DNA of 64,000 nt from Saccharicrinis fermentans DSM 9555 = JCM 21142 (GTDB lineage Bacteria > Bacteroidota > Bacteroidia > Bacteroidales > Marinilabiliaceae). The notes under the pieces are model-generated. The model ran no database searches. It was not told where the DNA came from and worked only from the letters and a program-made list of their open reading frames with translations. The number at the start of each line of letters is the position of its first letter. The first letter of the stretch is position 1. The translations under genes and the position numbers were made by a program. This document shows positions 1,457 to 60,490 of the stretch, one piece after another. The stretch lies in the NCBI RefSeq assembly GCF_000517085.1, contig NZ_KI912107.1, forward strand, positions 1,240,398 through 1,304,397, written 5' to 3'.

Positions 1457-1463
1457 CTAAACC

Positions 1464-3965: not shown

Positions 3966-3976
3966 TTTATTAAGAA

Positions 3977-14676: not shown

Positions 14677-14681
14677 TACTG

Positions 14682-30284: not shown

Positions 30285-30965
30285 TCATTTATTATAAATC
30301 TTTTCCTTAAAATATTTTATAGATATTCCTGCAAAATCAAGAAAAAACTCTGCATCCTCTTTGGATATATTCTGTTGCTCAGTTCCTCCATGTCTTACAA
30401 AATCTTTATTGCTTACAAAACCATACATTTGGCTAATTAATCTTTGAATATCAGTATCTATTTCCGCTGATTTTATTGACTTACCCAATGTTTCCCCAGG
30501 TTTATTTAGGATGATTTGTAATGCACTTTCAATTGAATTTGTGGCTTCTTTTATACAATTCTCAAAATCGGGTTCGTTTGCTAATAAAAAGTTTTTAGCC
30601 TTTAGCCATTGCATTCTTATTGGCAACAATTTATCCACCAGAATATCATTTGTTTTTTTCCATTGTTTAGGTTCAGGTAATAATCTTATCTTTCTTTCTA
30701 AATCAATTAAAATATCGCTATACATTTCATTAACATTAGCTCTACGCTCTGCATATGTTGGGAATTTTAACTTACAATATCCCCATATTTCCTCAAGTGT
30801 TCTATATTGGTTTGGATTTGAATAACCTAACTTCTCAATTAGAATTAAAGTATCAATGTAAAGTTTTTTATATTCATCGGTTTGACCGTCTTGTCTGCCA
30901 TTTGTAACATAAGCAACAATCAATCCTTGTAGTCTTTCAATATTAGAAATTGTCTCTTTAATCAT
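30285..30965 (-). CDS. HEPN/Abi-C-like protein paired with a Shedu-like nuclease
   Basis: 226 aa, all-helical. The C-terminal ~90 residues (ATNSIESALQIIL ... LISQMYGFVSNKDFVRHGG ... EDAEFFLDFAG) match the abortive-infection C-terminal domain, a HEPN-type fold. R191-H192 (VRHGG) stand in the position of the conserved R-H of that family. HEPN proteins of this kind are often toxic RNases in defence; activity here is inferred. The gene overlaps the upstream nuclease gene by 4 bases (ATGA), so the two are translationally coupled. The N-terminal ~120 residues are unassigned. Confidence 0.65.
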   Translation of the reverse strand: MIKETISNIERLQGLIVAYVTNGRQDGQTDEYKKLYIDTLILIEKLGYSNPNQYRTLEEIWGYCKLKFPTYAERRANVNEMYSDILIDLERKIRLLPEPKQWKKTNDILVDKLLPIRMQWLKAKNFLLANEPDFENCIKEATNSIESALQIILNKPGETLGKSIKSAEIDTDIQRLISQMYGFVSNKDFVRHGGTEQQNISKEDAEFFLDFAGISIKYFKEKIYNK

Positions 30966-31618
30966 AATTTCCTTATTATTGCATTGTAAGTTCGAATTTC
31001 TAAATTAGGTTTTGTTAATCTATTCCACGCAGATTTGAAATTTTGCTTTATTTCATCTGATTCAAATTCATTTTCATTACCAATTACCAAAATACCTGAA
31101 GGTTCTCTAAAATCCTTAAGCTTAAATGCATCTCTTAAATGTGATTGGTATTTTCGACAGTAATCAATATACTCAGTCAATTGCGAAATACCTTTATTTC
31201 CCTCAATTGTGAAATAAACTTCATTTTGTGCGTTTACTTTTAAAAGTTTTTCATTAGCTCCTTTCAATTCGATTACCCACCATTGAAATCCATCTGAGCT
31301 TTTTCCCCCAACAATAAAATCAGGTATTAAACCTCTTTCGTTTCCAATTCTTGTTTTTATTTGTTGTTTTGGAATTACCCAAATTCCATGGTGTCCTGAT
31401 GTGTCAAGCAATGTTTCAAATATCTCAGGGTTTTTACTTAAAAACTTATCAATTAGTTTTTCATCAGATTTTTCTTCAATCAATTTTACAAAACTCTCTT
31501 TTGCTCCATCCTTTAAGAAATCTCGATGAGTAAAAAACTCCTTCAACGGATAATCCTCAGGATGTTTAATTTCATCCTTTGGTTTGGGAACTTTAGTTTT
31601 TTCAAAAGGTAGTTTCAT
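30962..31618 (-). CDS. Shedu-like (DUF4263) PD-(D/E)xK nuclease
   Basis: 218 aa. Residues ~50-190 match the Shedu/DUF4263 nuclease: LIDKFLSKNPEIFETLL, then D100 in GLIPDFIVGG, E117-x-K119 in WWVIELKGAN, and Q146/Y150 in ISQLTEYIDYCRKY. These are the expected PD-(D/E)xK active-site residues plus the family Gln/Tyr. The protein is short compared with full-length SduA, lacking a long N-terminal sensor region. The HEPN/Abi-C gene that follows may take that role. The pair stands alone between the decayed integrase and an IS91-like element, in the same orientation as the former. Confidence 0.7.
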   Translation of the reverse strand: MKLPFEKTKVPKPKDEIKHPEDYPLKEFFTHRDFLKDGAKESFVKLIEEKSDEKLIDKFLSKNPEIFETLLDTSGHHGIWVIPKQQIKTRIGNERGLIPDFIVGGKSSDGFQWWVIELKGANEKLLKVNAQNEVYFTIEGNKGISQLTEYIDYCRKYQSHLRDAFKLKDFREPSGILVIGNENEFESDEIKQNFKSAWNRLTKPNLEIRTYNAIIRKL

Positions 31619-34048: not shown

Positions 34049-34974
34049 GCATAAATGCATTACGTTTATGACTGTTATATATTACTCTTTTATTGTGATA
34101 ACTATTTGATTTAACGCTAAATATATGTTTTTATATATTCTGTTATTTGCGTTTGTTACTAGAATGTAGTTTTATGAAAGTATATCTATGGAGAATGTAT
34201 TGCACTCATTAAATTAGTTTTAGGTTTAATAATGGAAGTCTAAATTTAAAAAATTTTTAATTAAACGGTATTTATTTAGGGGACTTATTTTCGTTTTCCT
34301 TTTTTAGTCTGGCTTCATATTGCTAACGTGTAATCATACTTTGACTGCGATTTAGGCTTGGTTGATCCTCATCTTTCTATCTTAAAAAAATACAAGTATG
34401 CTATTAGGTTACCGAATATTCTGATGAATATGATTAGGGTCATGCGGAGTTTCTAAAACCTGAATTTTCAAGTTGAAATAGCCGGTTTATTATATCGTTT
34501 ACTAATTAAATACAAAATAAATCATGTGCTTGATGCAAGCATCGTGTTATGAATAGAAAAAATTAAAACTCCAGGATGGAAAATGAAACGAACCATGATA
34601 AAATATTTTGCTTCGCTGATCTTTGATTCTTACACAGAGGAATGATTAATACTGGTGAGTTCCATGTGGCCATTGAAAAATAACTTTAAACGTATGTAAA
34701 TACTAATTGGTTAATGTGGTGGAGTGAGATTTGCTCATTAGAAGTAATGATAATGCTTTGGTAGGGTCGCTTTTATGTGTTTAAAATTTACTGTTTGTAA
34801 TCATTTATTTTGTTTTGTTTTAATGTGCTAAGTGAATGTTTTTTTGTATTTTTATGATTGTCAAAGGACAACAAATCAATACATAATAAGTCAAATGGTG
34901 AGTGTAAATTAAGTGTAACTTCGGTTAGGGTTGTTGTGTATAATATTGGTTTATTGTAGTTTATGAGTAAAGAT
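34049..34974. other. Intergenic, no gene recognised
   Basis: About 0.9 kb of AT-rich DNA to the right of the IS91-like element. Short frames (for example on the minus strand around 34788-35018) show no protein-like composition. I see no repeat shared with other parts of the window and no tRNA other than the short match at 34975. Confidence 0.5.
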
Positions 34975-34996
34975 AATCGTCTCTCCACCCCGACGA
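34975..34996 (+). other. Possible att core with a tRNA 3'-end-like sequence
   Basis: AATCGTCTCTCCACCCCGAC resembles the acceptor end of a tRNA-Ser (TCTCTCC + A). It is followed by a terminator 22 bases on and by the integrase arm-like repeats. Only ~18 bases match, so it is no more than a candidate attachment core for the integrase at 35411. Confidence 0.25.
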
Positions 34997-35017
34997 AACA
35001 AATGTTAGTTTGTATCA

Positions 35018-35057
35018 AAAGCCTGTAAATTTCATGATTTACAGGCTTTTTTGTTTT
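35018..35057 (+). terminator. Intrinsic terminator
   Basis: AAGCCTGTAAAT, 6-base loop, ATTTACAGGCTT followed by a T-rich tail: a 12-bp perfect stem. There is no gene immediately upstream on the plus strand, so it may be the terminator of the tRNA whose 3' end is suggested at 34975. Confidence 0.8.
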
Positions 35058-35095
35058 TTGTTATTTCAATATAAACGGAAATAATTCAAAAGACT

Positions 35096-35259
35096 TGGTG
35101 AATAGATAGGGAGTAAAATTTATCGTTATATTTGTTCACCAAAGAATTTTATCTAAAAACTAGATAAAGAGGTAAGGAATAGTTTTATACTCTTTTAAAT
35201 CTGAAAATACTGGTGAACAGGTAGGGAGTAAGTTGCTTATTATGAAAACTGTTCACTGG
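35096..35259 (+). promoter_or_regulatory. Candidate integrase arm-binding repeats
   Basis: Direct repeats with consensus GGTGAAYAGRTAGGGAGTA start at 35097 and 35212 (full units 35096-35116 and 35211-35231). The inverted half-sites GTTCACCA (35134-35141) and GTTCACTGG (35251-35259) are also present. The cluster sits within 320 bases upstream of an integrase gene, where arm-type sites and the int promoter are expected. Confidence 0.5.
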
Positions 35260-35410
35260 GAATTATGTAAGTTGCATATATAGTGTTATTTACATGGATG
35301 TTATTCCTGGAGTGAGTCATGAATTTGATTGATATTGATTGGTTTTAGTATTGTCCTTTGATGCCAAACAAAGGATTTGTAATTATTAACCTCAATTAAA
35401 AATAATCATT

Positions 35411-36679
35411 ATGACTAGTAATCAAACATTTGCAATATCATTTGTTGCAAGGGCAGACAGAAAGGGAAACGAAAAGAATACATTAAACATTTATGCAAGG
35501 ATTACGGTAGGCGGAAAACGAGCTGAGATTTCTGTTGTTAAATCTGTCGCTAAAGAATCCTGGAATTCTTCAAAGGAGAGGTTGAATAGTAAATATAAAG
35601 ACTTTCGTCAAGGTAATGCTTACATTGATCAGGTTCGATCGAAATTAACGAGTATTTATAGAGAATTATCGCTTAAGGGGGCATTTATATCTCCTTTGGT
35701 AATTAAGAATTGCTTTATTGGTATTACAGATACAGGAAAAACACTTATAGAGCTATTGGACTATCATAATGAATCTCAAAAAAATACATTGATGCCAGGG
35801 ACTCTTAAAAATTATTTTACTACTCAAAAATATGTGCATAAATATCTAAAGGAATGTAAGAAAATTGATGATATACGCTTGGGTGAGATTAATTATAAAT
35901 TTATTACTGAGTTTGAGGCTTATTTGAGGGGGTATGAACCTATAGATCATCATAAGGCTTTATCTAATAATGGGGTGATGAAGCATTTGGAAAGGTTGCG
36001 GAAAGTGACTAGTATGGCTGTGCGTTTAGGTTGGCTGGAAAAGGATCCTTTTGAAAAGTATAAGTTATCTTTCGTGAAGGTTGATCGCGAATTTTTAACG
36101 GATAGGGAGTTAGAGGTGTTGAGGGAGAAAAGCTTTCAGATTAAAAGACTGCAGTTTGTTAAAGATTTATTTGTTTTTTCGTGTTATACTGGTTTGACTT
36201 ATATTGATGTGCACAATTTAAAGCGTGATAATTTGATTTTAGGTATTGATGGTGAGTATTGGATTCAGACCATTAGACAAAAGACTCATATGGTTGTTAA
36301 TATTCCGATTTTGCCAGTTGCGTGGGAAATTATTAATAAGTATAAGGATGATCCAAGAGCTGTTAATAATGGAACTATTTTTCCAAAATTATCGAATCAG
36401 AGGTTGAATAGTTATTTGAAAGAAGTTGCTGATTTATGTGGAATAACTAAGACCTTAACGTTTCATATGGCACGACATACGTTTGCTACAACTGTTACCT
36501 TGAGTAATGGAGTACCTATTGAAACAGTTAGTAAGGTGTTAGGCCATAGTAATTTATCCACAACCATGATTTATGCAAGAGTGTTGAAAGATAAGATTAG
36601 TGCTGATATGAAAGATTTGAAGCAAGTGTTGCAAAATAAAGAGGATAATGCTGGGTTGAAACGGCATGTTAAAAGATAA
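35411..36679 (+). CDS. int: IntDOT-like tyrosine integrase
   Basis: 422 aa with three domains: N-terminal arm-binding (FAISFVARADRKGNEKNTLNIYARITVGGKR), core-binding, and catalytic. In the catalytic domain SCYTGLTYIDVHNL has Thr where most recombinases have the first catalytic Arg. The CTnDOT integrase also lacks this Arg, so the enzyme may well be active. Later boxes are complete: HMARHTFATT, VLGHSNLSTTMIYARV. It is the first gene of the 35-42 kb element and is preceded by candidate arm sites and a terminator. The start MTSNQTFAIS follows an A-rich leader, typical of Bacteroidota. Confidence 0.9.
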   Translation: MTSNQTFAISFVARADRKGNEKNTLNIYARITVGGKRAEISVVKSVAKESWNSSKERLNSKYKDFRQGNAYIDQVRSKLTSIYRELSLKGAFISPLVIKNCFIGITDTGKTLIELLDYHNESQKNTLMPGTLKNYFTTQKYVHKYLKECKKIDDIRLGEINYKFITEFEAYLRGYEPIDHHKALSNNGVMKHLERLRKVTSMAVRLGWLEKDPFEKYKLSFVKVDREFLTDRELEVLREKSFQIKRLQFVKDLFVFSCYTGLTYIDVHNLKRDNLILGIDGEYWIQTIRQKTHMVVNIPILPVAWEIINKYKDDPRAVNNGTIFPKLSNQRLNSYLKEVADLCGITKTLTFHMARHTFATTVTLSNGVPIETVSKVLGHSNLSTTMIYARVLKDKISADMKDLKQVLQNKEDNAGLKRHVKR

Positions 36680-36779
36680 TTTTTGATTAGTATTGTTGGT
36701 ATTTAGTCGTTGAATTATTATGTTTATGGTTGGGATTCTCTACAAATCAACCTTTTTACATTCAAATCGACTAAAAAAA

Positions 36780-37940
36780 ATGCCGTATTTATTGGAGCAA
36801 TTTGAAAGGGTTGTTGAGTATATCGGCAACCCTAAAAACTGTGGTGTTAAATTTCAATTTGAGAACGAAAAGCAATTCGTTTATAGCATAAGTTTATTTG
36901 ATTTAAAGCAAGGTTTGTTGCTTTTGGCTGCATCTAAAGCTTTGCCGGGTATTGTGTGTCAGCAGGTACGATTGTATCAGAGTAGTTCGATAAGAATGCT
37001 AAAACATTTGCATGATAGACCTGATTGCTGTTGTTTCTCAGCAAGGTGTTGGGGTGATATTTTTTATGGGGTTGTGAATACACTTATTAGTTTCATCAAC
37101 TTTTTACATATACAATTTCCGGAGTATTTTGATAAAGAGTTGATTGCTCCGGCGCTCTACTATGATTACTATAGGGTTCGTTTTAAAGATAAAGTAGAGA
37201 AAATATTGAAATTAAAGGTTGATGCTGAAAAGCTTGAATCTATAAAGAAGGTTGTTGATTATTTTAAGGAGTTGGGGTATACAAATTGTTCGTTTAGAAG
37301 AATCTGGTATATAGATAAACTACTTACTAAGATTAATACAAAGATTTGTAATGAGCATGTAATGGGTGATAAATTTGAAGAATTGGTTAAGCTGATTATT
37401 TCGTATAATTTTAATTCAACAGAGGTTTATCATCAAATCATTGAATGGATCAAGCGCGATTTAGCCATGGGGACCAATGTAAATGCTGTACTTGAAAAGT
37501 TACAATGTTATAAAAAACAAGTATCGCAGATTATGGTGATAAAAGGAGATGGTTTTTCGCGTAAATCAAAAAAATTAAAAATATCGATTATTAATTGGAT
37601 CAATAAGGAAATGAATTCATTTAATTATCATGTTCATATATTTGATGAGGTTAAGAAGGTAAAGGAACCGGAGCAACTGTATATTAGGCCTCAAAAAATA
37701 CAGACTAATTTATCTGTTGCGGAGATAGCATGCGTGCTTAGGCAGTTCATTGAAGTGGGTATTATATATGCAGATAACAAAAAAGAAATCTTTAGATTGG
37801 TTTCTGAAATTTTTGCATCAAAGCATAATCATCAAATATCATATAAGAGCTTAAATAATAACTTTTTTAATATTGAACTTTCTACATATAAATCTACAAA
37901 ACAACTGTTTCTTAAACTTTTTAGATCCATCGAAGAATGA
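36780..37940 (+). CDS. RteC-like protein
   Basis: 386 aa from ATG 36780 (MPYLLEQFERVVEYI); an in-frame ATG at 36720 gives a less likely 406-aa form. The C-terminal ~90 residues (TNLSVAEIACVLRQFIEVGI ... NKKEIFRLVSEIFASK ... ISYKSLNNNFFN) match the RteC family of Bacteroides conjugative transposons, where RteC activates excision. The N-terminal two thirds are helical and less conserved. It lies 100 bases after the integrase in the same direction. A regulatory role in excision is inferred from the family. Confidence 0.75.
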   Translation: MPYLLEQFERVVEYIGNPKNCGVKFQFENEKQFVYSISLFDLKQGLLLLAASKALPGIVCQQVRLYQSSSIRMLKHLHDRPDCCCFSARCWGDIFYGVVNTLISFINFLHIQFPEYFDKELIAPALYYDYYRVRFKDKVEKILKLKVDAEKLESIKKVVDYFKELGYTNCSFRRIWYIDKLLTKINTKICNEHVMGDKFEELVKLIISYNFNSTEVYHQIIEWIKRDLAMGTNVNAVLEKLQCYKKQVSQIMVIKGDGFSRKSKKLKISIINWINKEMNSFNYHVHIFDEVKKVKEPEQLYIRPQKIQTNLSVAEIACVLRQFIEVGIIYADNKKEIFRLVSEIFASKHNHQISYKSLNNNFFNIELSTYKSTKQLFLKLFRSIEE

Positions 37941-38031
37941 TATGATTTAGATATACATTTTATGGTTTAAGTATCTTAAAAGTTTGCGGTTAAAAAAAAT
38001 ATATCCTTGTAACTTATTGGTAATCTTTGGG

Positions 38032-38061
38032 GTTGTTGGGGGTTGTACAACCCCCAACAAC
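38032..38061. repeat. 30-bp perfect palindrome
   Basis: GTTGTTGGGGGTTGT followed directly by its exact reverse complement: 15-bp arms, no loop, no mismatch. It is strikingly GC-rich in AT-rich surroundings and stands in the 178-bp gap between the RteC-like gene and the HTH gene. There is no T-run, so it is not a standard terminator. A dimer operator, a replication or resolution site, or a cruciform are the options. Confidence 0.9.
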
Positions 38062-38118
38062 TGTTTTCGTATTGCTTTTGTATTTTTCTTTGTGTCATAT
38101 CAATATTAATCAATAAAT

Positions 38119-38388
38119 ATGGCAACAGAAATTATTACAACAGACGATTTGCGGGAGTTCAAAATTGAACTTCTGGAAGAGCTTGAGAAACTTCTCAAAC
38201 AGAACTCAGGGAGTCAGCATAAGAAATGGTTGAAATCCTATGAGGTGAAGGAACTTTTAAATGTGTCTTCTGGTACACTTCAACATCTGCGAGTGAGTGG
38301 TATGCTGCCCTATACAAAAGTTGGAGGTACAATCTATTACGATTACAATGATATTCAGAATATGATTACTCAAAACAAATGTGGGTAA
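38119..38388 (+). CDS. Helix-turn-helix (MerR/excisionase-like) protein
   Basis: 89 aa. An N-terminal coiled-coil helix (LREFKIELLEELEKLLKQ) is followed by a winged HTH of the excisionase type: KSYEVKELLNVSSGTLQHLRVSGMLPYTKVGGTIYYDYNDIQNM. This form is common in Bacteroidota conjugative and integrative elements, often beside integrase or replication genes. It starts 57 bases after the 30-bp palindrome, a natural candidate for its binding site. The role could be excisionase or regulator of the replication genes downstream. Confidence 0.8.
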   Translation: MATEIITTDDLREFKIELLEELEKLLKQNSGSQHKKWLKSYEVKELLNVSSGTLQHLRVSGMLPYTKVGGTIYYDYNDIQNMITQNKCG

Positions 38389-38409
38389 TGCTTTTTCAAA
38401 CAATTGGTT

Positions 38410-39117
38410 ATGAACTTCATCCAACATTTGCTGGATGCGTTTGCGAAAATGGACAGGGAAAAGCTTCTGAAAGCATACCACGTTAGCCTTTATATTTCTC
38501 TGTTTAGGATATGGAACCGTAACCGTTTCGATAATCCTATTTGGGTAAATCGGGATGAGTTAAAAACTATGTCAAAGATTGGGTCTAATAATACTTACTA
38601 TAAGGCTCTTAGAACACTGGAGGATTGTGGTTTTATTAAGTATACACCGTCTTTTGATCCGCAGGTAGCTAGTAAAGTTTACCTGTACACTTTTGATATA
38701 GGTACCTGTACACCACCTATATCAAAAGTGAACCCTTTATATAAACATATAAAATATATATACTCTATATATAGTAATGAAGAAAATCAAAAAGAGATGA
38801 AAGAAACTAATATGAATGATAAGTCGAAAAAAGCGTTTCAGAAACCACCAATTGAGCATATTCAAATCTATTTTGAACAAAAAGGTTATTCGGAAATAGA
38901 AGCTCAACGTTTTTTCAATTACTACGAAAGCAATGGCTGGATGGTAGGGGGTAGATCGAAAATGAAAGATTGGAAAGCAGCTGCTCGTAATTGGATGTTA
39001 AATATTCAACGTTACCAAGTAAATTCATTTGAGAAGCAAGGAACCAATGCACAGGACAAAATGGCATCGAAGGAACAAAGGAATTTTTCCTCGCGAAATT
39101 ATAATGAACCTCTTTGA
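38410..39117 (+). CDS. Phage O-like replication initiator with an origin inside its gene
   Basis: 235 aa from ATG 38410 (MNFIQHLLDAFAKMDREKL). The N-terminal ~100 residues look like a winged helix (WVNRDELKTMSKIGSNNTYY, ALRTLEDCGFIKYT). The C-terminal ~75 residues (IEHIQIYFEQKGYSEIEAQRFFNYY ... MKDWKAAARNWML) match the terminal domain of phage-type initiators. Between them, codons at 38681-38800 carry repeats and an AT-rich block that look like an origin. It is followed 33 bases on by a DnaC-like loader. This is the order and logic of lambda O and P. An initiator function is inferred from these features. Confidence 0.75.
   Translation: MNFIQHLLDAFAKMDREKLLKAYHVSLYISLFRIWNRNRFDNPIWVNRDELKTMSKIGSNNTYYKALRTLEDCGFIKYTPSFDPQVASKVYLYTFDIGTCTPPISKVNPLYKHIKYIYSIYSNEENQKEMKETNMNDKSKKAFQKPPIEHIQIYFEQKGYSEIEAQRFFNYYESNGWMVGGRSKMKDWKAAARNWMLNIQRYQVNSFEKQGTNAQDKMASKEQRNFSSRNYNEPL
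38681..38800. other. Candidate replication origin within the initiator gene
   Basis: Two copies of ACCTGTACAC (38681-38690, 38704-38713) lie with a perfect 15-bp inverted repeat ACTTTTGATATAGGT (38689-38703 and complement 38715-38729, 11-base spacer). Immediately after, 38733-38790 is almost pure A+T (TATATAAACATATAAAATAT and onwards), a likely unwinding region. Iterons plus an AT-rich block inside an O-like gene is the lambda arrangement. Confidence 0.65.
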
Positions 39118-39150
39118 ATTTCTTTAACATGAAAATCTAAAATAAGAGTG

Positions 39151-39798
39151 ATGTTTTACAATATCCAGAATAACTATATCGTCTATAACTATCAAAAGAG
39201 CCTTGATTTTATGGTAAAGAAGGGCAGGGAGATATACGGTGAGTGTTTTAGCTTACAGAGTGCGGATATGCCTATTATTCGAAAATTGTTTGTTTACATG
39301 ATTAGGGATGAGGAACTAATGGTTGAGGAAGGTTTAGATTCGCGAAAAGGCATAATGCTTTGTGGACCTATTGGGGTAGGAAAAACTTCTTTGATGCATT
39401 TATTGAGGCTGATTTTGCCAGAAAGCAAAAGCTATATGATGAAATCATGTAGGGATATCAGTTTTGAATTTCATAGGGATGGTTATGATGTAATTGACAG
39501 ATATAGTAAAAAAAGCCTCAGGTTTAATCATGGAATAATGAAAAAACAGACCATCTGTTTTGATGATTTGGGTGCTGAGCAAAACTTAAAACATTTTGGC
39601 AATGAATGCAATGTATTGTCTGAAATATTATTATCCAGATATGATTTGTTTATTTCTGATAGCCTTATCACTCATATAACAACAAATCTAAATGCTACTG
39701 AGATAGAAAAACAATATGGAGTTAGGGTAAGAAGTCGTTTAAGAGAAATGATGAATGTGGTTTCTTTTTCGGATGAGGCACCAGATAAGCGTAGATAA
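39151..39798 (+). CDS. DnaC-like AAA+ helicase loader
   Basis: 215 aa from ATG 39151. P-loop GIMLCGPIGVGKTSLMHLL (about residues 68-80), Walker B TICFDDLGAEQ, and sensor and Arg-rich C-terminal motifs (HITTNLNATEIEKQYGVRVRSRLREMMN) are those of DnaC/DnaI-type helicase loaders and IstB relatives. Position after an O-like initiator suggests it brings the host DnaB helicase to the element's origin, as lambda P does. It is one of the most conserved-looking genes of the element and has no frameshift. Confidence 0.8.
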   Translation: MFYNIQNNYIVYNYQKSLDFMVKKGREIYGECFSLQSADMPIIRKLFVYMIRDEELMVEEGLDSRKGIMLCGPIGVGKTSLMHLLRLILPESKSYMMKSCRDISFEFHRDGYDVIDRYSKKSLRFNHGIMKKQTICFDDLGAEQNLKHFGNECNVLSEILLSRYDLFISDSLITHITTNLNATEIEKQYGVRVRSRLREMMNVVSFSDEAPDKRR

Positions 39799-39810
39799 AA
39801 TATATTTGTT

Positions 39811-40371
39811 ATGAAGAATAATTTATTAAAATCAGCTTTATTACAAAAAGGACTTCCTCTATTGGCAAATGTACTTACTGGAGGAACAGCTAAGCCGGCT
39901 TTTGAATTGGTGAAATCAATATTAAGCTTAAAGGTTAATGATGACGATGGTTTTTTAGAGCAGTTAACTCAAAAGCCGGACCTCATCGATAAGTTACGTG
40001 AATTTGAAATTAATCAAGAGATAGAACTTCAAAAACTAGCTTTACAATCAACTCGTTTAGAGATTGAAGAATCAAAAGCGTATTTACTAGATAAACAGAG
40101 TGCACGTTTAAGAGAGACGCAGTTGGCACAAGCGACTGGACAACGTGATTGGTTAATGTTGTCGTTGGCGATTGTAGTCGTAATAGGATTTTTTAGTCTG
40201 ATTTCAATTATGATATTAGGCGATAATGCTCAAAAAGTAACCAATAATGGTCCCGTAAATCAATTGTTTGGCGCTTTGGTTGCGGGGTTTAGTATGGTAC
40301 TATCGTACTTTTTTGGGTCAAGTAAAAGTTCGGCAGATAAAACTAAAACGATTGCTAATCAAAGGATATAA
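39811..40371 (+). CDS. Holin-like protein with two transmembrane segments
   Basis: 186 aa. An amphipathic N-terminal region (KSALLQKGLPLLANVLTGGTAK) and a long charged helix (residues ~55-105) are followed by hydrophobic segments at about 112-136 (WLMLSLAIVVVIGFFSLISIMIL) and 148-166 (FGALVAGFSMVLSYFFGSS), with a Lys-rich tail. It starts 12 bases after the DnaC-like gene and precedes the DUF5675 gene by 7 bases. The topology parallels the protein at 14682. A membrane-pore or lysis role is suggested by context only. Confidence 0.6.
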   Translation: MKNNLLKSALLQKGLPLLANVLTGGTAKPAFELVKSILSLKVNDDDGFLEQLTQKPDLIDKLREFEINQEIELQKLALQSTRLEIEESKAYLLDKQSARLRETQLAQATGQRDWLMLSLAIVVVIGFFSLISIMILGDNAQKVTNNGPVNQLFGALVAGFSMVLSYFFGSSKSSADKTKTIANQRI

Positions 40372-40378
40372 GTTTATT

Positions 40379-40840
40379 ATGGATTTAACAGTTTTACGTT
40401 ATAGTTCAGGGGTAGAGAGTACTCTGGGGTTGTTGTATATTGATCAAAAATTTGCTTGTTATACTCTTGAAGATGAACATCGTGAGAAGAAAGTGTATGG
40501 AGAAACCAGGATACCTGCAGGGAGGTATAAGGTTATACTCAGAACGGTAGGCTCTCACCATAAGCGTTACAAGCAAAAGTTTCAGGAGTTTCATAAAGGT
40601 ATGCTGCACATTACAAATGTACCTAATTTTACAAATATTTTAATCCATATAGGAAATACAGATGATGATACAGCAGGTTGTTTGTTGGTGGGAGAATCGA
40701 GTTATTCAAATGTAAATCAGCCAGGGAGAATTAATAGTAGTACAATTGCTTACAAAAGGATTTATCCTATCATTGTTAACGCAATAGGAAAAGGCGATGA
40801 GGTTTGGATAAATTATTTGGATGAGGTAAAGTTTGAATGA
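40379..40840 (+). CDS. DUF5675 family protein
   Basis: 153 aa from ATG 40379 (MDLTVLRYSSGVESTLGLLYIDQ). Residues ~1-125 match DUF5675: FACYTLEDEHREKK, GETRIPAGRYKVILRT, MLHITNVPNFTNILIHIGNT and DDTAGCLLVG, with a His and a Cys in a layout like L,D-transpeptidase/YkuD-type active sites. The family occurs in phages and integrated elements of Bacteroidota, usually next to a holin-like gene. A cell-wall role is likely but not proven. It lies 7 bases after the holin-like gene, in the same direction. Confidence 0.8.
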   Translation: MDLTVLRYSSGVESTLGLLYIDQKFACYTLEDEHREKKVYGETRIPAGRYKVILRTVGSHHKRYKQKFQEFHKGMLHITNVPNFTNILIHIGNTDDDTAGCLLVGESSYSNVNQPGRINSSTIAYKRIYPIIVNAIGKGDEVWINYLDEVKFE

Positions 40841-40905
40841 ATACAAACAGGATTAAAATGAATGAGGTTTGAGAATGTGTTTCTGACAAATAGGGAAAGA
40901 GATTA

Positions 40906-41109
40906 TTAATCATACAGATACTCTTGAATTGTTTCAATTGAAATGCCGGAATATTCGGCAAATTCTTTAGTTGTGATGAACTGTTGTTTCTCTTTTCCTA
41001 ATTCCTTTTTTATTTTTGTTAAAAGTCGTTGGGCGGATTTTTCACTTTTGCCAGTTATCCTTTGTATATCTTTAGGATAAATGCAAATCCGTTTTAGTTT
41101 AATGTCCAT
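40906..41109 (-). CDS. Small HTH protein, possible element regulator
   Basis: 67 aa, the only minus-strand gene of the 35-42 kb element. Basic start (MDIKLKRICIYPKDIQRITG) and two short HTH-like stretches (SEKSAQRLLTKIKKELG and TTKEFAEYSGISIETIQEYL). It is probably a DNA-binding regulator. Two tandem 11-bp repeats lie directly upstream of its start codon at 41112-41133, a plausible autoregulatory operator. No family name can be given with certainty. Confidence 0.6.
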   Translation of the reverse strand: MDIKLKRICIYPKDIQRITGKSEKSAQRLLTKIKKELGKEKQQFITTKEFAEYSGISIETIQEYLYD

Positions 41110-41111
41110 GG

Positions 41112-41133
41112 TGCTTTATCGATGCTTTATCTA
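41112..41133. promoter_or_regulatory. Tandem 11-bp repeat upstream of the small HTH gene
   Basis: TGCTTTATCGA and TGCTTTATCTA, adjacent, differing at one base, 3-24 bases upstream of the HTH start on the minus strand. One helical turn per unit is consistent with an operator for a small HTH dimer. Confidence 0.4.
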
Positions 41134-41287
41134 TACTGTATTCATACCTTTGAATGGCATAATCGATACTCTAAGATAATAAAAAAAATAGGGTCAAAAC
41201 GGCCAAAATGGGACAAATTGGACACTGTTATTTGCAATTTAGGACATAATGCTATTACATTAAAGGTGTTGTTTAAATTAGTTGATT

Positions 41288-42046
41288 ATGGCAAGGCAAA
41301 AGAGTATTTTGAAACTAGAAGGAAGTATTGGGGATGTTTCTTTTTACAAAAGTGGAGGGGAATATTTGGCCCGAACTAAAGGGGGCGTAGATGGAGATCG
41401 AATTAAAACAGATCCAGCATTTGCGCGTACCCGGGAAAATGGAGCTGAGTTTGGGGTTGCCGGTAAGGCAAGTAAATTGTTGCGCACTGCATTTAAAGCA
41501 CCTATTGCTGCGATTGCAGATAACAGAGTTGCTAGCAGGTTAACTACCCAAATGTTGAAAGTGGTGCAGTCTGATACTGTGCATTCGAGAGGAGAGAGGA
41601 CTGTTCAGGATGGTGATTTAGGTCTTATTCGGGGGTTTGAGTTTAATGTGAATACAGGATTAGAAGATGTTGTAAAAGCAGCTTATTCTGTAACATTTGA
41701 TAGAGTTTCTGGTGAAGCTAGTGTTGCTATTGATTTTAGTAATCCACGTTTAGAGTTAAATCAGGTTGATGGTGCAGACCAGGCACAAATACTTATTGGG
41801 TTGGCAGCAGTTGATTTTGAGAATAGCGAATATGAGGTGGATGTGGTAGAAGCAGAAGCTATTGCTATTGATTCAACAGAAGCTGTTGTTGTTGAGCAAA
41901 CGGCTGCCATTTCGGCGAATAGTACCCGTCCTGTGTTTGTGATTGTTGGTATTATGTATTATCAATCAGTTAATGAAGAGTTATACCTTATCAATAGTCA
42001 GGATAGCAGAGCGCTGGCATTAGTAGCGGTGGATCAGCCAGAATAA
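41288..42046 (+). CDS. Conserved mobile-element protein of unknown function (254-aa type)
   Basis: 252 aa from ATG 41288 (MARQKSILKLEGSIGDVSFY). The N-terminal ~60 residues are basic and Gly-rich (GEYLARTKGGVDGDRI, DPAFARTRENGAEFGVAG). The rest is beta-rich and acidic (VDVVEAEAIAIDSTEAVVVEQ) with a C-terminal sheet (STRPVFVIVGIMYYQ). No catalytic motif and no signal peptide are seen. A basic head plus a beta-sandwich-like body would suit a structural or DNA-coating protein, but this is speculation. I have the impression that similar proteins accompany holin/DUF5675 genes in Bacteroidota elements; I cannot check that here. Confidence 0.6.
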   Translation: MARQKSILKLEGSIGDVSFYKSGGEYLARTKGGVDGDRIKTDPAFARTRENGAEFGVAGKASKLLRTAFKAPIAAIADNRVASRLTTQMLKVVQSDTVHSRGERTVQDGDLGLIRGFEFNVNTGLEDVVKAAYSVTFDRVSGEASVAIDFSNPRLELNQVDGADQAQILIGLAAVDFENSEYEVDVVEAEAIAIDSTEAVVVEQTAAISANSTRPVFVIVGIMYYQSVNEELYLINSQDSRALALVAVDQPE

Positions 42047-42097
42047 AAAGGTTATATGTGTTAATTTTGTAAAGTATCGTGTTTAAAATAGGATCAA

Positions 42098-42268
42098 ATG
42101 GATAGTAAAGTTGGTTTTATAGGAGGGAGTTTGGTTGCTATTTTAAAAAGTATTACTTTGCATAATATTGTTGAAACAGTAGTATACACTGTTATAGGAA
42201 CAGTAGTAAGTTACTTTGTTTCTTTGTTGTTAAGATGGATGTTTGGTAAGTCGAGGTTTGGTAGCTAG
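42098..42268 (+). CDS. 56-aa single-pass membrane protein
   Basis: Frame from ATG 42098: MDSKVGFIGGSLVAILKSIT, then VVYTVIGTVVSYFVSLLLRW and a basic end. One transmembrane helix. It lies between the 252-aa protein and a terminator, so it is the last gene of the element's plus-strand unit. Size and topology would suit a minor holin or a membrane component. No family recognised. Confidence 0.55.
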   Translation: MDSKVGFIGGSLVAILKSITLHNIVETVVYTVIGTVVSYFVSLLLRWMFGKSRFGS

Positions 42269-42289
42269 GATAGATGGTTAGGTTTGGTA

Positions 42290-42325
42290 TAAAGGTCTTT
42301 ACATTGTTGTAAAGACCTTTTTTTG
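42290..42325 (+). terminator. Intrinsic terminator closing the element
   Basis: AAAGGTCTTTAC, 6-base loop, GTAAAGACCTTT followed by a T-run: a perfect 12-bp stem, 22 bases after the 56-aa gene. Confidence 0.88.
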
Positions 42326-55785: not shown

Positions 55786-56391
55786 ATGGAGGATGTAATA
55801 AAATACGATTTTTCATTTACAGCCTCATCTTTGCGGCGAAATGACATGGTGATGGTGGCGAAGAATTTAATTGGTAGAGAGAAACTGAATTTGGAGCAGG
55901 AATTAGGAAGAGGGAAAGGCGCTACCGGAAAGAGGATTTTACGAGAATGCAATAAAAGAATAGCAAAACTCACCCATGAACAGATTGATTTGCTGATTGA
56001 TGGAGATCTGATAACTCAAAACCACATGGCCTTTTTGGCGATATGTAAACTGCACTCTTTTATTAGAGACTTTGTGGTGGATGTGGTTAGAGAGAAACTT
56101 TTGGTATATGATTATGGGTTGACTGAAGGAGAGTATATTTCCTTTTATCGTAGAAAAGCAGAGTTGCATAGTGAAATGGAAAGCTTAAAAGAATCAACAC
56201 AGAGGAAGATTAAGCAGGTTACTTTTAAAATACTTGAGCAAGCAGGGCTTATTGATGGAGTGAAGACAAAAGTCATTCAAGCCCAGATACTCGACCATAA
56301 AGTATGCAGAACCATTGTAAGTGATGATAAAGAATGGCTTAAAGTGTTTTTATTAACCGATCAGGATATAAACAGTTGGACAGAATACTAA
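55786..56391 (+). CDS. brxA: BREX protein BrxA (DUF1819)
   Basis: 201 aa: KYDFSFTASSLRRNDMVMVA, ending NSWTEY, all-helical, with features of the DUF1819 family (short helical repeats around LITQNHMAFLAICKL and IKQVTFKILEQAGLI). BrxA is a conserved small DNA-binding component of type 1 BREX, needed for some functions of the system. It is followed by brxB with a TAATG overlap, and brxC then starts at 56972. Its neighbours fix the assignment. Confidence 0.88.
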   Translation: MEDVIKYDFSFTASSLRRNDMVMVAKNLIGREKLNLEQELGRGKGATGKRILRECNKRIAKLTHEQIDLLIDGDLITQNHMAFLAICKLHSFIRDFVVDVVREKLLVYDYGLTEGEYISFYRRKAELHSEMESLKESTQRKIKQVTFKILEQAGLIDGVKTKVIQAQILDHKVCRTIVSDDKEWLKVFLLTDQDINSWTEY

Positions 56392-56969
56392 TGAAAGATA
56401 TATCAGAAAAATTCGACCATTTATATAAAGTTATTTCATCTAAAAGTTTTTTAAACAAAGAAGCATTAGGTGGTGAAATTCCTTTTTTTATTTCGGCATA
56501 TGATGCAAAAAAAGAGTTGCTAGTGGATGAATCAATAAAGTTATTGATAAATAAGCTAGATACATCAGGTGTGCCGGTATTGGAACTGAATTTGTATGAA
56601 TTAGTATGTGAAATACTGGAAAACAAAGGAGGTGTTGAACGAATGTTTAAGGTTGAGAAATTAAAATCGAAAGAAAAATTTTTAAGAGCACTACAATCTT
56701 CTTTAAATATTCATCAAGTACTTATGCCCTTAATTCAACGTAAAATAGAACAGGCAAATGCTCATGTTTACTTTTTAACAGGTATTGGCAAAGTGTTTCC
56801 TTTTATACGTTCGCATAATGTTTTAAATAATCTGCAAAATATAGCCAAAGAAGCCCCGACGGTTGCTTTTTTCCCTGGAGACTACAATGGGCATACCTTA
56901 AATTTGTTTGGGTTATTGAAGGATGATAATTACTACCGAGCATTTAATATTGAAAAAATAGAAGCCTAG
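56391..56969 (+). CDS. brxB: BREX protein BrxB (DUF1788)
   Basis: 192 aa from ATG 56391, overlapping the brxA stop by one base (TAATG). A longer frame starting at 56376 lies inside brxA and is not preferred. MKDISEKFDHLYKVISSKSF, GGEIPFFISAYDAKKE and FLTGIGKVFPFIRSHNVLNN, HTLNLFGLL are DUF1788 features. Its exact role in BREX is unknown, but it is required with BrxC and PglX. Confidence 0.88.
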   Translation: MKDISEKFDHLYKVISSKSFLNKEALGGEIPFFISAYDAKKELLVDESIKLLINKLDTSGVPVLELNLYELVCEILENKGGVERMFKVEKLKSKEKFLRALQSSLNIHQVLMPLIQRKIEQANAHVYFLTGIGKVFPFIRSHNVLNNLQNIAKEAPTVAFFPGDYNGHTLNLFGLLKDDNYYRAFNIEKIEA

Positions 56970-56971
56970 CC

Positions 56972-59900
56972 ATGAATATAAAGTCATTTTTTGAGAAGGA
57001 TATCAATAGAAATATTGAAACAGTTATTAAAGCTGATGATAGAGCGCATATCTCTGACGAAGTAGCAGAATATGTTATTACCCATGAAATAGCGAAGAAA
57101 ATAAGAGATTTTTTTCAGTCGTATAATGATTATGCTGGAGCCAATGGTGTATGGATATCTGGTTTTTTTGGTAGTGGTAAGTCGCACTTATTAAAGATTT
57201 TATCCTATGTTTTAGAGAATAAGTCTTTTAATGGCTACAAGAGTGGCGAATTATTTGCTGAGAAGATTGAAGATGATGAGATGTTAAAAGGAGATGTGAT
57301 GGCGGCCACTCGTATTCCCTCAGAATCTATTCTTTTTAACATAGACCAGCAGGCACAGATTACTGCCAAGTCGGATGAGAATGCAATACTATCGGTATTT
57401 TATAAAGTGTTTTTTGATCACTTGGGATATTATGGTTTTCAGACCCATGTAGCAGAATTTGAGATGTGGGTAGATAAACAAGGGCATTTTGAGACTTTTA
57501 AAAGTAAGTTTGCTGAAAAACATAAAAGCCCTTGGGAGGAAGCTCGCTTAGACTATTTTGATCCTTTGGTGACAGATGCCATTGCGGAAGTATTAGGCGA
57601 ACTAAATAATACGGATGCATCGAAATATGAAAATATATTAGAAGGACTGGAAGACAGGCAAAAACAATCGATAGAAGACTTTTGCTTGCGCGTGCATGAT
57701 TATATTAAAACAAAACCTAAAGGTTTCCGATTAAACTTTTTTGTGGATGAGGTAGGGCAATATATCAGCGATAATACCAAGTTGATGTTAAACTTGCAAA
57801 CTATAGCAGAAACGTTAGCTACCAGAACCAAGGGGTGCTCGTGGATATTGGTTACTTCGCAGGAGGATATGGAGAAAGTAGTAGGAGATATGAGTAAAAG
57901 TCAACAGAATGACTTCTCCAGGATTCAGGCTCGCTTTAAGCTTAAAGTACCTTTAACTTCAGCTAACGTAGATGAGGTGATTGAGAAAAGGTTGTTAAAG
58001 AAAAATGACAATGCGCAGAAACGATTGGTGTCTTCTTATAAAGAAGAGAAGGCCCATTTGGATACTCTTTTATCGTTTTCAGATGCAGGTGTGCAATTTA
58101 AAGGATATAAAGAAGATACGGATTTCAGTCATAAATACCCTTTTGTACCTTATCAGTTCGATCTTTTTCAGCATTGTCGCAGAGCCTTATCTACGCATAA
58201 TGCTTTTCAGGGAAAACATGCTTCTGTGGGAGAACGTTCGATGCTGGGGGTATTTCAGCAAGTGATTCAAAGTATTGAAGAGAGAGATGACAGGGCCTTA
58301 GTTAGTTTTGACAAGATGTATGAAGGGGTTCGTAACGAACTGCGTGGAGAAATACAAAGTTCAGTTATATTGGCTGAGCGTAATCTGGATAATCGTTTTG
58401 CAGTGCAGGTGTTAAAAGCGTTATTTCTGGTAAAATACTTCGCTAATTTTAAAACCACACGGCGAAATATATCCGTTTTGATGATTGATGATATCAATGT
58501 TGACCTTAAAAAACATGAGCGCAATATCGAAGAGGCACTCAATACGCTTGAGAATCAAAGTTATGTGCAGCGTAATGGGGATATATATGAGTTTTTAACT
58601 GATGATGAAAAAGATGTAGAGGAAGAAATTAAAAGTACGGATATTGATGAGCAAGCAGTAACCGATTTGTTAAAAGCGATATTTTTTGATGAGATTATCC
58701 GTGACAATAAAATAAAATTTCTGGACAATAAACAGGATTACGATTTCACTAATAAGATTGATGGTTCTATTCTGGGTAGAGAAAAAGAATTGGAAATAGA
58801 AATCATAACACCGAATTATGTTGATTACGATAAATTAGACATTATAAAAGCACAAACCATGGGTAGTGCTTCCATGAAAATGATTTTACCATTGGATGCG
58901 GTTTTTATGAAAGACCTGAAGATGTATTTACGTACGCACAAATATGTGAAGCAAAGTCAGTCTACCACAAATCGACCAGAGGTAAAAAGAATATTACAAG
59001 ACAAAGGACAACAGAATGCGGATCGTCGTCGCAATTTATTGTTGATTGCCAACAAACTGATGGCTACTTCTACAGTTATTATGAACGGCCAAAAACATGA
59101 GATGGGTCAAAATACTGAAGGTAAGACCCGTGTAGTGAATGCTTTTCAGGATCTGATAAAAATAGTTTATTCTAATTTACGGATGCTGGGTAGTGTGCAA
59201 TATAGTGAAGACACCATTAAACAAGTTATCAGAGACAAGCAAGATGCTCTTTTTGGAGCAGATGATAAGTCCATGTCTGAAGCTGAATCAGAAATAATAA
59301 ATCTTATTAAACGGCGCAAGAAACAATCGGACAGGACATCGCTGAACGATTTAAAAACACATTTTTTGCGCAAACCATACGGCTGGTATCCCAATGCTAT
59401 TTGGACGATAAGCGCAAAACTATACAAACGAGGTAAGCTAGAATTAAAGCAAGATACCAATTTGTTAGATGACGATAGAGTATTAAATGCTTTGCTTAAT
59501 AGTGCCTATCATGCCAATACATTGCTTGAACCACAGGCTACTTTTGATGTAGCTATGGTGAAAAAACTGAAACAGACGTATGCGGATGCTTTTGATGAAA
59601 ACTGTGCGCTAACGGAGGCTAAAGATGTGGCCAATGCTTTTAAAGAGAGACTGAAAGAGATGCAGGTGGAACTCGGTAAATTATTGGCGAAGAGAAATAG
59701 TTATCCTTTTATTAGTGGCTTAAGTGATTTTAATGAAAAGTTATATCGTTGGAGCACGAAAGAATACAGCTATTACCTTACAAATATAAGTGATTTTGAA
59801 GATGACTTGCTAGACACAAAAGAAGACTTGTTGGATCCGATCAAACGATTTATGAATGGAGATCAGGTACAAATATACGATGCTATACATGCGCTATTAA

Positions 59901-60490
59901 ATGGCGATCGCTCTAATTTAGATTATATTGAAGGGAATGAATTTAAAACTCTTGAAAATTTATTGGCTCACCCTAAGCCTTATACTGGCAATTTAATCAG
60001 AGAAGCCAAGGCAGCCAAAGAGGAGTTAAGTAAAAAAGTATTAAATCTTATTGAGGAAGAAAAAACTTCAGCCATTGCAACAGTAGAGAAGACCATTAAA
60101 GTTTTACAAAGCAAGGATGAGTATAAAAACTTAGAATCAGGCAAACAAAATATAATTGTAAGGCCCTTGCAGGATGAAATGCAGAAGTTGCATAATCAAA
60201 AGTATATTGCCATTATACGTGATATCAAGCATAAGGTAAAAGATAGACTTTTGGAGCAACAGCTCAACGAAATGATTCGTTTATCCACACCGATAAAAGA
60301 AGAGGCTGCTAAAAAAGATGGTGCGCCTGTGGTACACGACCCGATTCCGCATTACATCAGAAAGAGTGCGGTGAAAGTAAATTTTAGCAAAACAGAATTA
60401 CGATCAGAAACGGATGTGCAGGAGTATATAGAAGCCTATAAAAAGGCCTTGTTAAAAGAAATAAAAAATAACAGACGTATTTCGCTATAG
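56972..60490 (+). CDS. brxC: BREX P-loop ATPase BrxC
   Basis: 1172 aa. Walker A GFFGSGKSH at residues 64-72 in the typical ANGVWISGFFGSGKS context, a Walker B-like LNFFVDEVGQYI, then a very long helical region ending with YKKALLKEIKNNRRISL. Length is normal for BrxC/PglY (~1200). It starts 2 bases after brxB. In BREX it is the large ATPase of the core complex. The gene appears intact. Confidence 0.93.
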   Translation: MNIKSFFEKDINRNIETVIKADDRAHISDEVAEYVITHEIAKKIRDFFQSYNDYAGANGVWISGFFGSGKSHLLKILSYVLENKSFNGYKSGELFAEKIEDDEMLKGDVMAATRIPSESILFNIDQQAQITAKSDENAILSVFYKVFFDHLGYYGFQTHVAEFEMWVDKQGHFETFKSKFAEKHKSPWEEARLDYFDPLVTDAIAEVLGELNNTDASKYENILEGLEDRQKQSIEDFCLRVHDYIKTKPKGFRLNFFVDEVGQYISDNTKLMLNLQTIAETLATRTKGCSWILVTSQEDMEKVVGDMSKSQQNDFSRIQARFKLKVPLTSANVDEVIEKRLLKKNDNAQKRLVSSYKEEKAHLDTLLSFSDAGVQFKGYKEDTDFSHKYPFVPYQFDLFQHCRRALSTHNAFQGKHASVGERSMLGVFQQVIQSIEERDDRALVSFDKMYEGVRNELRGEIQSSVILAERNLDNRFAVQVLKALFLVKYFANFKTTRRNISVLMIDDINVDLKKHERNIEEALNTLENQSYVQRNGDIYEFLTDDEKDVEEEIKSTDIDEQAVTDLLKAIFFDEIIRDNKIKFLDNKQDYDFTNKIDGSILGREKELEIEIITPNYVDYDKLDIIKAQTMGSASMKMILPLDAVFMKDLKMYLRTHKYVKQSQSTTNRPEVKRILQDKGQQNADRRRNLLLIANKLMATSTVIMNGQKHEMGQNTEGKTRVVNAFQDLIKIVYSNLRMLGSVQYSEDTIKQVIRDKQDALFGADDKSMSEAESEIINLIKRRKKQSDRTSLNDLKTHFLRKPYGWYPNAIWTISAKLYKRGKLELKQDTNLLDDDRVLNALLNSAYHANTLLEPQATFDVAMVKKLKQTYADAFDENCALTEAKDVANAFKERLKEMQVELGKLLAKRNSYPFISGLSDFNEKLYRWSTKEYSYYLTNISDFEDDLLDTKEDLLDPIKRFMNGDQVQIYDAIHALLNGDRSNLDYIEGNEFKTLENLLAHPKPYTGNLIREAKAAKEELSKKVLNLIEEEKTSAIATVEKTIKVLQSKDEYKNLESGKQNIIVRPLQDEMQKLHNQKYIAIIRDIKHKVKDRLLEQQLNEMIRLSTPIKEEAAKKDGAPVVHDPIPHYIRKSAVKVNFSKTELRSETDVQEYIEAYKKALLKEIKNNRRISL

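Follow-up and report, generated by a model that had tools for sequence, protein, structure and literature searches.

A tRNA-integrating island of Saccharicrinis fermentans with a putative lysis-type operon, and its relatives across Bacteroidota

Ten adjoining genes at positions 35096-42325 of a 64,000-nucleotide window from Saccharicrinis fermentans DSM 9555 = JCM 21142 (contig NZ_KI912107.1) raise the question of what kind of element they belong to and how it might travel. An initial annotation had read them as a compact, PICI-like or satellite-like element carrying an integrase with arm-like repeats, a palindrome, an HTH protein, a replication initiator and helicase loader, DUF5675, a 252-aa and a 56-aa protein and a terminator, and Pfam and PHROG searches together with repeat and shuffle analysis placed all of these features where they had been seen. 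We consider it probable that these ten genes form the core of an integrative mobile element belonging to a Bacteroidota-wide family, a grade that covers the whole explanation, including its inferred lysis-coupled steps. The features of the core were as follows.

35107..35231, no strand: arm-type-like direct repeat 5' of the integrase, 10-bp TAGGGAGTAA at 35107 and 35222
35411..36679, plus: tyrosine integrase, 422 aa (PF13102 3.6e-22, PF00589 2.7e-16, PF17293 1.1e-11)
36720..37940, plus: RteC-position protein, 406 aa (no Pfam match)
38032..38061, no strand: perfect 30-bp palindrome, operator-like (none this long in 200 mononucleotide shuffles)
38119..38388, plus: HTH_17, regulator or excisionase-like (PF12728 8.5e-07; phrog_66 4.9e-06)
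38404..39117, plus: RepO, predicted O-like replication initiator (phrog_15768 5.9e-25, a family without an assigned function)
38688..38793, no strand: RepO-internal origin-like inverted repeat (38688-38730, arms of 16 bp) next to an AT-rich stretch
39148..39798, plus: DnaC-like helicase loader (phrog_50 1.3e-15; alignment of relatives)
39811..40371, plus: membrane protein, holin-like by position (phrog_1544 7.4e-14, a family without an assigned function)
40379..40840, plus: DUF5675 (PF18925 3.3e-33; L,D-transpeptidase-like fold in the model)
40906..41109, minus: HTHm, small divergent HTH gene, excisionase or regulator candidate (weak Cox/Xis similarity)
41288..42046, plus: P252, 252 aa, without a match to any known family (N-part basic, C-part an acidic beta-sandwich)
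42098..42268, plus: P56, 56-aa membrane protein (relatives at 55 of 80 P252 loci)
42291..42325, plus: terminator-like hairpin and T's (read by eye; homology to copy B stops here)

Island ends, core and cargo

The core was found to be part of island A (57.2 kb), which forms a tandem with its sister, island B (47.4 kb), behind tRNA-Pro(TGG). Both islands were bounded by copies of the tRNA-Pro 3' end, so att copies at both ends, which the initial annotation had proposed to look for, were present. Island A starts at about 34982, extends beyond the window and ends at C3:1332621; 35096-42325 is its conserved core alone. The junction between the islands consisted of three parts.

34751..34981, no strand: right end of island B (some 230 bp), with homology to the island A right end at L170 13389-13620
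34982..34994, plus: att core, copy of the tRNA-Pro(TGG) 3' end at the B/A junction (exact-copy search of the genome)
34995..35085, plus: tRNA-Pro terminator and start of the left end, recurring at the far end of island A

Window positions 34751-35085 aligned to L170 13389-13724 with 81% identity over 347 columns. The att core TCTCCACCCCGAC had four exact copies in the genome, namely two tRNA-Pro genes, the B/A junction at 34982 and C3:1332621, and no further match with up to two mismatches was found in the window, nor were tRNA genes or Rfam RNAs found inside it. In an empty-site comparison within the genus, the flanking regulator had many paralogues and a single close match. Judged from sequence, the element is thus a tRNA-integrating island, with its integrase adjoining the tRNA and the 3'-end repeat at the far end.

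The cores of the two islands were 92.8% identical, while the arm-repeat stretch (35107..35231) and the integrase N-terminus were together divergent in copy B. The RteC-position protein shared 97% identity with copy B and 18-29% with the proteins at the corresponding position in five more distant elements. It had been called RteC-like; the window protein itself gave no Pfam match, and the label drew its support from the same-position protein of L171, which is RteC (PF09357, 3.9e-84). In Bacteroides conjugative transposons, RteC regulates excision. Copy B has the identical 30-bp palindrome; in L057 a 20-bp palindrome of different sequence lay upstream of HTH_17, and none of like strength was found 5' of HTH_17 in L055, L171 and L172. 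Copy B retains the inverted repeat inside RepO, and L057 has it with paired changes, but it was not detected in L055, L171 and L172; the neighbouring DnaC and this internal repeat point to RepO as a putative initiator.

Between their ends the islands carry variable cargo, which by prediction is in this genome largely anti-phage defence:

46089..49947, minus: Gabija GajB and GajA, island A (PADLOC 3.4e-187, 2.7e-247)
55786..60490, plus: BREX BrxA, BrxB and BrxC, island A (PF08849 9e-31, PF08747 7.8e-43; PADLOC BrxC E=0)
503..7198, plus: IetA, IetS and a type I restriction enzyme, island B (PADLOC IetA 4.4e-72, IetS 3.1e-35, REase_I E=0)
30962..31618, minus: Shedu SduA, island B (PADLOC 6.8e-106)

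The BREX genes PglZ and BrxL followed beyond the window, in L170.

Recurrence across Bacteroidota

P252 was present in 31 of 149 relative genomes and in 32 of 395 sampled genomes of the phylum, the S. fermentans genome being counted in both, and at least 563 of the 591 peptide-pattern stretches encoded relatives among the matches listed. HTHm relatives stood at 71 of 80 P252 loci, and the order P252, DUF5675, c10, P56 was read at 42 of the 80 (18 showed P252 alone). The gene set recurred as a unit, and nothing showed it to be a fragment of a tailed prophage or of a conjugative transposon. The operon of the window is arranged differently, with DUF5675 upstream of HTHm and c10 absent, and that of G552:C7 differs again. 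A frequent layout ran from att through HTH, P252, DUF5675 and two membrane proteins to cargo, followed by DnaC, RepO, HTH_17 and RteC, the integrase and the tRNA. Among 35 strong DnaC matches, 27 had P252 on the same contig, no more than 70 kb upstream and in all 27 on the opposite strand, and 8 had none; this pairing drew on the top 50 P252 places (E of at most 3.6e-101, with weaker, diverged ones omitted) and 35 of 39 DnaC matches (two of the own genome and two weak ones omitted).

The ends were examined in 23 elements, each consisting of P252 and a convergent integrase on one contig: 22 came from 20 named genomes and one was G001:C49. The 20 genomes represent 20 of the 80 loci and were picked for P252 on fair-sized contigs, and the counts are conditional on that choice. 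Exact end repeats of at least 15 bp were found in 18 of the 23 elements and overlapped a tRNA in 15, all 15 starting within 5 nt of the tRNA 3' end; in 21 elements the integrase was followed by a tRNA at a distance of 212-397 bp. The repeats of G552:C5, G554:C5a and G001:C49 lay outside a called tRNA, the latter two elements being adjoined by a neighbouring element, and no 15-bp repeat was found in G549:C1, G556:C4, G550:C4, G559:C3 and G560:C176. In G552:C5 a distance of 109 kb separates P252 from the integrase, and the pair may not belong to a single element; in G553:C35b another integrase stands closer, at 7 kb. Stretches G546:C14, G551:C8 (without integrase) and G552:C7 were left out of the count. 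Six relatives measured end to end were 16.7, 29.3, 29.5, 31.5, 33.7 and 35.7 kb long; with islands of 47 and 57 kb in the window's own genome, the description as compact was not borne out. An integrase within about 7 kb was absent at 72 of 80 P252 loci, and integrases further off were found among the matches listed. Since these lay far downstream, a reading of P252 as a stand-alone 3-kb mobile cassette was dropped.

A diverged relative was found in the 25.3-kb circular record NZ_CP129969.1 (Marivirga sp. BKB1-2), in which the integrase adjoins HTHm. Its P252 is 36% identical and unannotated, and its integrase and DnaC are in pieces, so the record may be decayed or misread. The family is now defined, on a phylum-wide scale, by its ends and gene order, by a relative recorded as a circle and by one conserved operon without an assigned function. 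No account of the element was found in the open-licence PMC literature.

The P252 operon

The structure model of DUF5675 (pLDDT 81.7) gave no significant PDB match by Foldseek alone. When it was compared with solved structures by VIA, the 39 top rows were all L,D-transpeptidase-fold chains (Z 9.1-6.2), and the next row scored 2.6. DUF5675 thus models as an L,D-transpeptidase fold, a peptidoglycan-enzyme fold that it is predicted to share with Pgp2, Tlde1a, YkuD and LdtMt2, although identity in the aligned parts is 9-17%. His90 and Cys101 were invariant in 44 aligned sequences and are, by their conservation, candidate catalytic residues. Cell lysis is not a necessary activity of enzymes of this fold. 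Near P252 in other loci we found Amidase_2 genes (1e-9; six loci of one genome) and GH108 genes (about 1e-22; four loci, on the strand opposite to P252), in a survey whose greedy ORF pick missed small genes. Because of the DUF5675 fold and these substitutes in some relatives, the operon with its small membrane proteins looks like a putative lysis type; the holin-like label of 39811..40371 is a guess based on membrane helices and location. Conserved gene-poor DNA after the lysin in G016 was tried as a large RNA and gave no Rfam match at the seven loci scanned.

P252 combines a basic, better conserved N-part (mean charge +6.9, mean pairwise identity 70%) with an acidic C-part (-6.8, 53%), the charges being means over 77 proteins. 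No PDB entry matched its model (pLDDT 88.7) with an E-value of 1e-3 or below, and the best VIA match was to a C2 domain (Z 5.2). Against BFVD, one match fell below 1e-3 (8.3e-4), covering part of the chain of an uncharacterised 145-aa phage protein. We take its hairpin-helices-sandwich look to resemble DUF6266, but a relationship found no support in hhalign (probability 1.2% against five DUF6266 proteins). The structural test against capsid folds suggested by the initial annotation yielded no convincing capsid match: Foldseek and VIA returned generic beta-sandwiches alone, in a comparison that cannot exclude a capsid.

Modes of travel and relation to known elements

We propose that excision would be switched on by the HTH proteins and RteC, and that the excised circle would replicate from the origin inside repO. 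The P252 operon would serve as a late, lysis-type operon in which DUF5675, with membrane helpers, may cut or trim peptidoglycan, so that the DNA would exit by lysis. P252 would be a cytosolic protein released with the DNA, possibly DNA-bound or self-assembling. Autonomous lysis-coupled release of this kind is our tentative first choice for the mode of travel; modes other than this and the satellite mode are together somewhat unlikely. The stronger claim of a phylum-wide mobile class with a new transfer route, which replicates, lyses the host cell by means of its own L,D-transpeptidase-type lysin and moves along with, or within, a P252 assembly, without terminase, portal, tail, relaxase or fixed genome length, appears rather unlikely to us. 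Whether the P252 operon acts as the vehicle is the key question, and it is directly testable in culturable Flavobacterium, Polaribacter and Marivirga.

Terminase, portal, tail and conjugation families did not stand out among the matches of the ten core proteins, as had been noted initially, and no terminase, portal, capsid or tail gene was seen among the genes scanned in the complete 16.7-kb element L171. A phage satellite would be induced by a helper, replicate by RepO and DnaC and be packaged in helper particles, with P252 redirecting or decorating helper parts. The combination of integrase, regulator, replication module and defence cargo, with no structural hallmark gene found, recalls PICI and P4-like elements as outlined in PMC6092414 and PMC9122126. 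However, the element has its own predicted lysis-type gene, and its ends lie 16.7 to 57 kb apart, so no single helper capsid fits. Moreover, P252 occurred in none of 50,697 phage records, and Terminase_6N (PF03237), the one terminase family searched, was found in 0 of 15 host genomes while 6 of 14 controls were positive, so no tailed prophage of that class resides in these 15 genomes. Packaging as a satellite is therefore judged unlikely. A tail-less virus-like element, in which the particle is made of P252, the membrane components are c10 and P56 and the lysin is DUF5675, would agree with an operon that includes a lysin and small membrane proteins, with the basic N-part and beta-sandwich C-part of P252, and with the one circular record. 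We regard it as improbable, given that no packaging ATPase was recognised, that peptide-pattern scans of viral contigs confirmed no P252, that element length is highly variable, and that a capsid match is missing from a structure comparison that could not exclude one.

Two further readings are very improbable. Mobilization through the conjugation of a resident conjugative element would agree with the presence of RteC in L171, but the relaxase PF03432, the sole relaxase family searched genome-wide, was absent from 9 of the 15 genomes, the own genome included, and its nine matches in the other six all lay outside element intervals; the circular record is also typed non-mobilizable in PLSDB. Alternatively, the P252 operon might be an abortive-infection or antagonism device, with P252 as a phage sensor or bacteriocin and the lysin killing the cell. 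A lysin-like gene with membrane proteins inside defence-carrying elements would suit such a device, as would the many loci with no integrase close by, though one may lie further off; its position at the element end, outside the cargo, in the mapped elements, the conservation of P252 in both parts and the lack of a PADLOC match for the operon argue against it.

Lysis-coupled release of an integrative element remains our tentatively preferred reading. The earlier picture of an element that integrates and carries a replication module of its own and regulators, together with predicted lysis-type genes and a single 252-aa protein left unexplained, was upheld. Specific att sites, defence cargo and the lack of phage structural hallmark genes are shared with PICI and P4-like satellites, and, as in PICIs, an integrase, a replication module and a master regulator are present, one of the HTH proteins presumably being the last of these. 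In contrast, the element is longer, very variable in length and without a known helper; PICIs typically measure 12-15 kb, and their lack of lytic genes probably does not apply to an element with a lysin-like gene. We know of no counterpart of the P252 operon in either satellite type. With Bacteroidota tRNA islands and integrative mobilizable elements it shares the Arm-DNA-bind_5 tyrosine integrase, RteC, HTH_17, cargo and tandem insertion, but it differs in its phage-type RepO/DnaC, its lysis-type operon and the absence of a PF03432 relaxase inside. For many genomic islands the means of movement is described as unknown (PMC11389934). Charybdis elements, as far as PMC12324425 describes them, are likewise circular virus-like elements without hallmark genes, with an accessory and a conserved module, some of them adjoining tRNA genes; on that description they are set apart from the present family by their size (about 4.6 kb) and their marine archaeal host.

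Tandem islands at tRNA-Pro

All features named in the initial annotation were located in the window sequence. When the whole S. fermentans genome was searched with the 252-aa protein (P252), a second copy, 91% identical, was found 47.5 kb upstream. The core in the window (copy A) and its upstream sister (copy B) shared 92.8% DNA identity over window 35735-42324, reaching the terminator downstream of the gene for the 56-aa membrane protein (P56). A second matching stretch (window 34980-35059, 80 bp, 91%) corresponded to the 3' end of tRNA-Pro(TGG) and its terminator, and two tRNA-Pro genes lay directly left of copy B. The att core, TCTCCACCCCGAC, occurred in four genome copies on the same strand: in the two tRNA genes, at window 34982, and at contig position 1332621. 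The att copies that the initial annotation had proposed to look for at both ends were present, and the window and far sites matched over ~335 bp (81%), of which ~230 bp precede the core and 90 bp follow it. A and B are therefore two tandem islands with ends of the same kinds and different middles (contig coordinates):

1228015-1275379, island B, 47.4 kb
1275379-1332621, island A, 57.2 kb

Tandem elements were also present in one relative (G001:C49). The integrases of A and B were 29.5% identical over residues 1-105 and 88.3% over residues 106-422, and the region upstream of the integrase gave no long match between copies (window 35060-35735 versus 6094-6643 of L067, the stretch holding copy B). 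This difference probably reflects a swap of the arm-binding domain together with its sites. The same IS91-type transposase and tyrosine recombinase pair was seen close to the right-hand end of each island (window 31965-33934; positions 10880-12849 of L170, the far end of island A). A broken tyrosine integrase in island B (window 28724-29965, minus strand) is probably a remnant of another element.

Island A carried GajA, GajB, BrxA, BrxB, BrxC, PglZ, and BrxL, and island B carried IetA, IetS, a type I restriction enzyme, SduA, a KAP ATPase, an RND efflux pump, and a heavy-metal ATPase. A second lysis-type cassette was observed in island B at window 14467-15649, without adjoining P252; it encoded a 69-aa coiled-coil-like protein, a 136-aa membrane protein, and a GH108 endolysin (PF05838, 3.7e-18; phrog_315 endolysin, 2.6e-30).

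Within the core, the 30-bp palindrome at 38032-38061 was perfect, and a stem of equal length was seen in 0 of 200 shuffles. The gene for the O-like initiator (RepO) contained an inverted repeat with 16-bp arms (38688-38730) adjoining an AT-rich stretch. Copy B has this repeat too, as does the compared stretch L057, where the two arms have changed in step; no counterpart was found in L055, L171, or L172.

Complete elements and recurrence in Bacteroidota

Counting the S. fermentans genome in both sets, P252 was detected in 31 of 149 relatives and in 32 of 395 genomes sampled across the phylum, and a scan of named genomes gave at least 563 P252 relatives from at least 591 stretches. Eighty loci were retained, from Flavobacterium, Lutibacter, Polaribacter, Chitinophagaceae, Cyclobacteriaceae, Marinilabiliaceae, and others. 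The small divergent HTH gene (HTHm) was found at 71 of them, and the order P252, DUF5675, c10 (a small membrane protein), P56 in 42; P252 alone was detected by this method in 18. The gene set recurs as a unit, a point that the initial annotation had proposed to check. The window and G552:C7 shared the same gene set in other orders. In a first set of 42 loci, DUF5675 lay close to P252 in 11. Six loci, all of a single genome, had an Amidase_2 gene in its vicinity and 4 had a GH108 gene, the families being checked on examples.

Pairs of P252 and a downstream opposite-strand integrase were collected from 20 named genomes picked for carrying P252; 21 were spaced 8 to 61 kb and one 109 kb. The helicase loader gene (DnaC) was a third partner, with P252 upstream within 70 kb for 27 of 35 strong DnaC hits and in opposite orientation in all 27. 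An exact repeat of at least 15 bp was shared by the P252 end and the stretch beyond the integrase in 18 of 23 elements, with none in the other five; 17 of the 18 were equalled by none of 100 shuffles and one by a single shuffle. The repeat overlapped a tRNA (Pro, Ser, Arg, Lys, Val, Leu, or Asp) in 15 elements, always beginning within 5 nt of the tRNA 3' end, and a tRNA lay 212-397 bp beyond the integrase in 21 of 23.

The Meridianimaribacter flavus element (L171; 16.7 kb between repeats) comprised att, HTHm, P252, DUF5675, c10, P56, and a four-gene Wadjet-like cassette (MksE, 2.7e-21; JetD, 1.8e-5), followed by DnaC, RepO, the regulators HTH_17 and RteC, three cargo genes, the integrase, and tRNA-Pro. 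A 25.3-kb circular plasmid record from Marivirga (NZ_CP129969.1) contained by tblastn RepO, HTH_17, integrase, HTHm, P252 (36% identity), c10, and P56, and DUF5675 by its annotation, with integrase and DnaC both in pieces. Its integrase adjoined HTHm, the arrangement expected for a joined circle.

Several minor features were noted around these loci. In G016, a long conserved stretch without clear genes lay 3' of the lysin in the six copies compared (in L052, ~2440-3900 downstream of the P252 start), with no Rfam match in the copies scanned. Diverged P252 paralogues stood head to head with typical ones (G553:C4 996-3189; G546:C26 7001-9978), hinting at a second P252 clade. A gene for DUF6266, a Bacteroidota protein of unknown function, adjoined a DUF6943 gene (L188 1486-2848), and in 34 of the 80 loci a gene resembling the same family, c11, was located 3' of P252.

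P252, DUF5675 as a putative lysin, and the kind of element

P252 had no Pfam match over the cut-off and none in PHROG, NCBIfam, PADLOC, or PDB sequences, the family being unnamed by any library searched; searches of phages gave no relative, and none was confirmed among viral contigs. Its model (pLDDT 88.7, 77 sequences) had a hairpin and helices up to residue 128, then a beta-sandwich. Comparison with known structures gave no convincing capsid match, the top matches being generic sandwiches (best Foldseek E 1.4e-3, best VIA Z 5.2). The N-part was basic and more conserved, the C-part acidic, and peak hydrophobicity was 1.22 (Kyte-Doolittle, 19-residue window) versus 1.96-2.81 in the membrane proteins of the set. 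The DUF5675 model (pLDDT 81.7, 44 sequences) matched L,D-transpeptidase-fold enzymes in the first 39 VIA matches (Z 9.1 to 6.2; next 2.6), with no significant match by Foldseek alone. His90 and Cys101 were invariant. DUF5675 is taken to be a peptidoglycan enzyme and is most likely the lysin.

Among the genes scanned in the complete L171 element, none belonged to a relaxase, terminase, portal, or capsid family. The genome-wide search for transfer genes covered one relaxase family (PF03432) and one terminase family (PF03237). The former was lacking in 9 of the 15 host genomes; the remaining six contained nine hits, all outside the elements. The latter was detected in 0 of 15 host and 6 of 14 control genomes. 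Release coupled to lysis, together with P252, may serve as the vehicle, as may a lytic helper phage or some other route. As to the PICI-like or satellite-like identity first suggested, the criteria published in PMC6092414 indicated that the element works partly as a PICI does; however, it is too large and probably has lytic genes, which a PICI lacks, and was therefore not classed as a PICI. Its place is among the tRNA-integrating islands in the broad sense, of which it is a variant that has a lysis-type operon and the unnamed P252 family. No description of the family was found in the open-licence papers searched. A weak DnaC-family hit was also seen beside a PF03432 relaxase gene (G546:C3 3591-4962), away from that genome's typical P252 elements.
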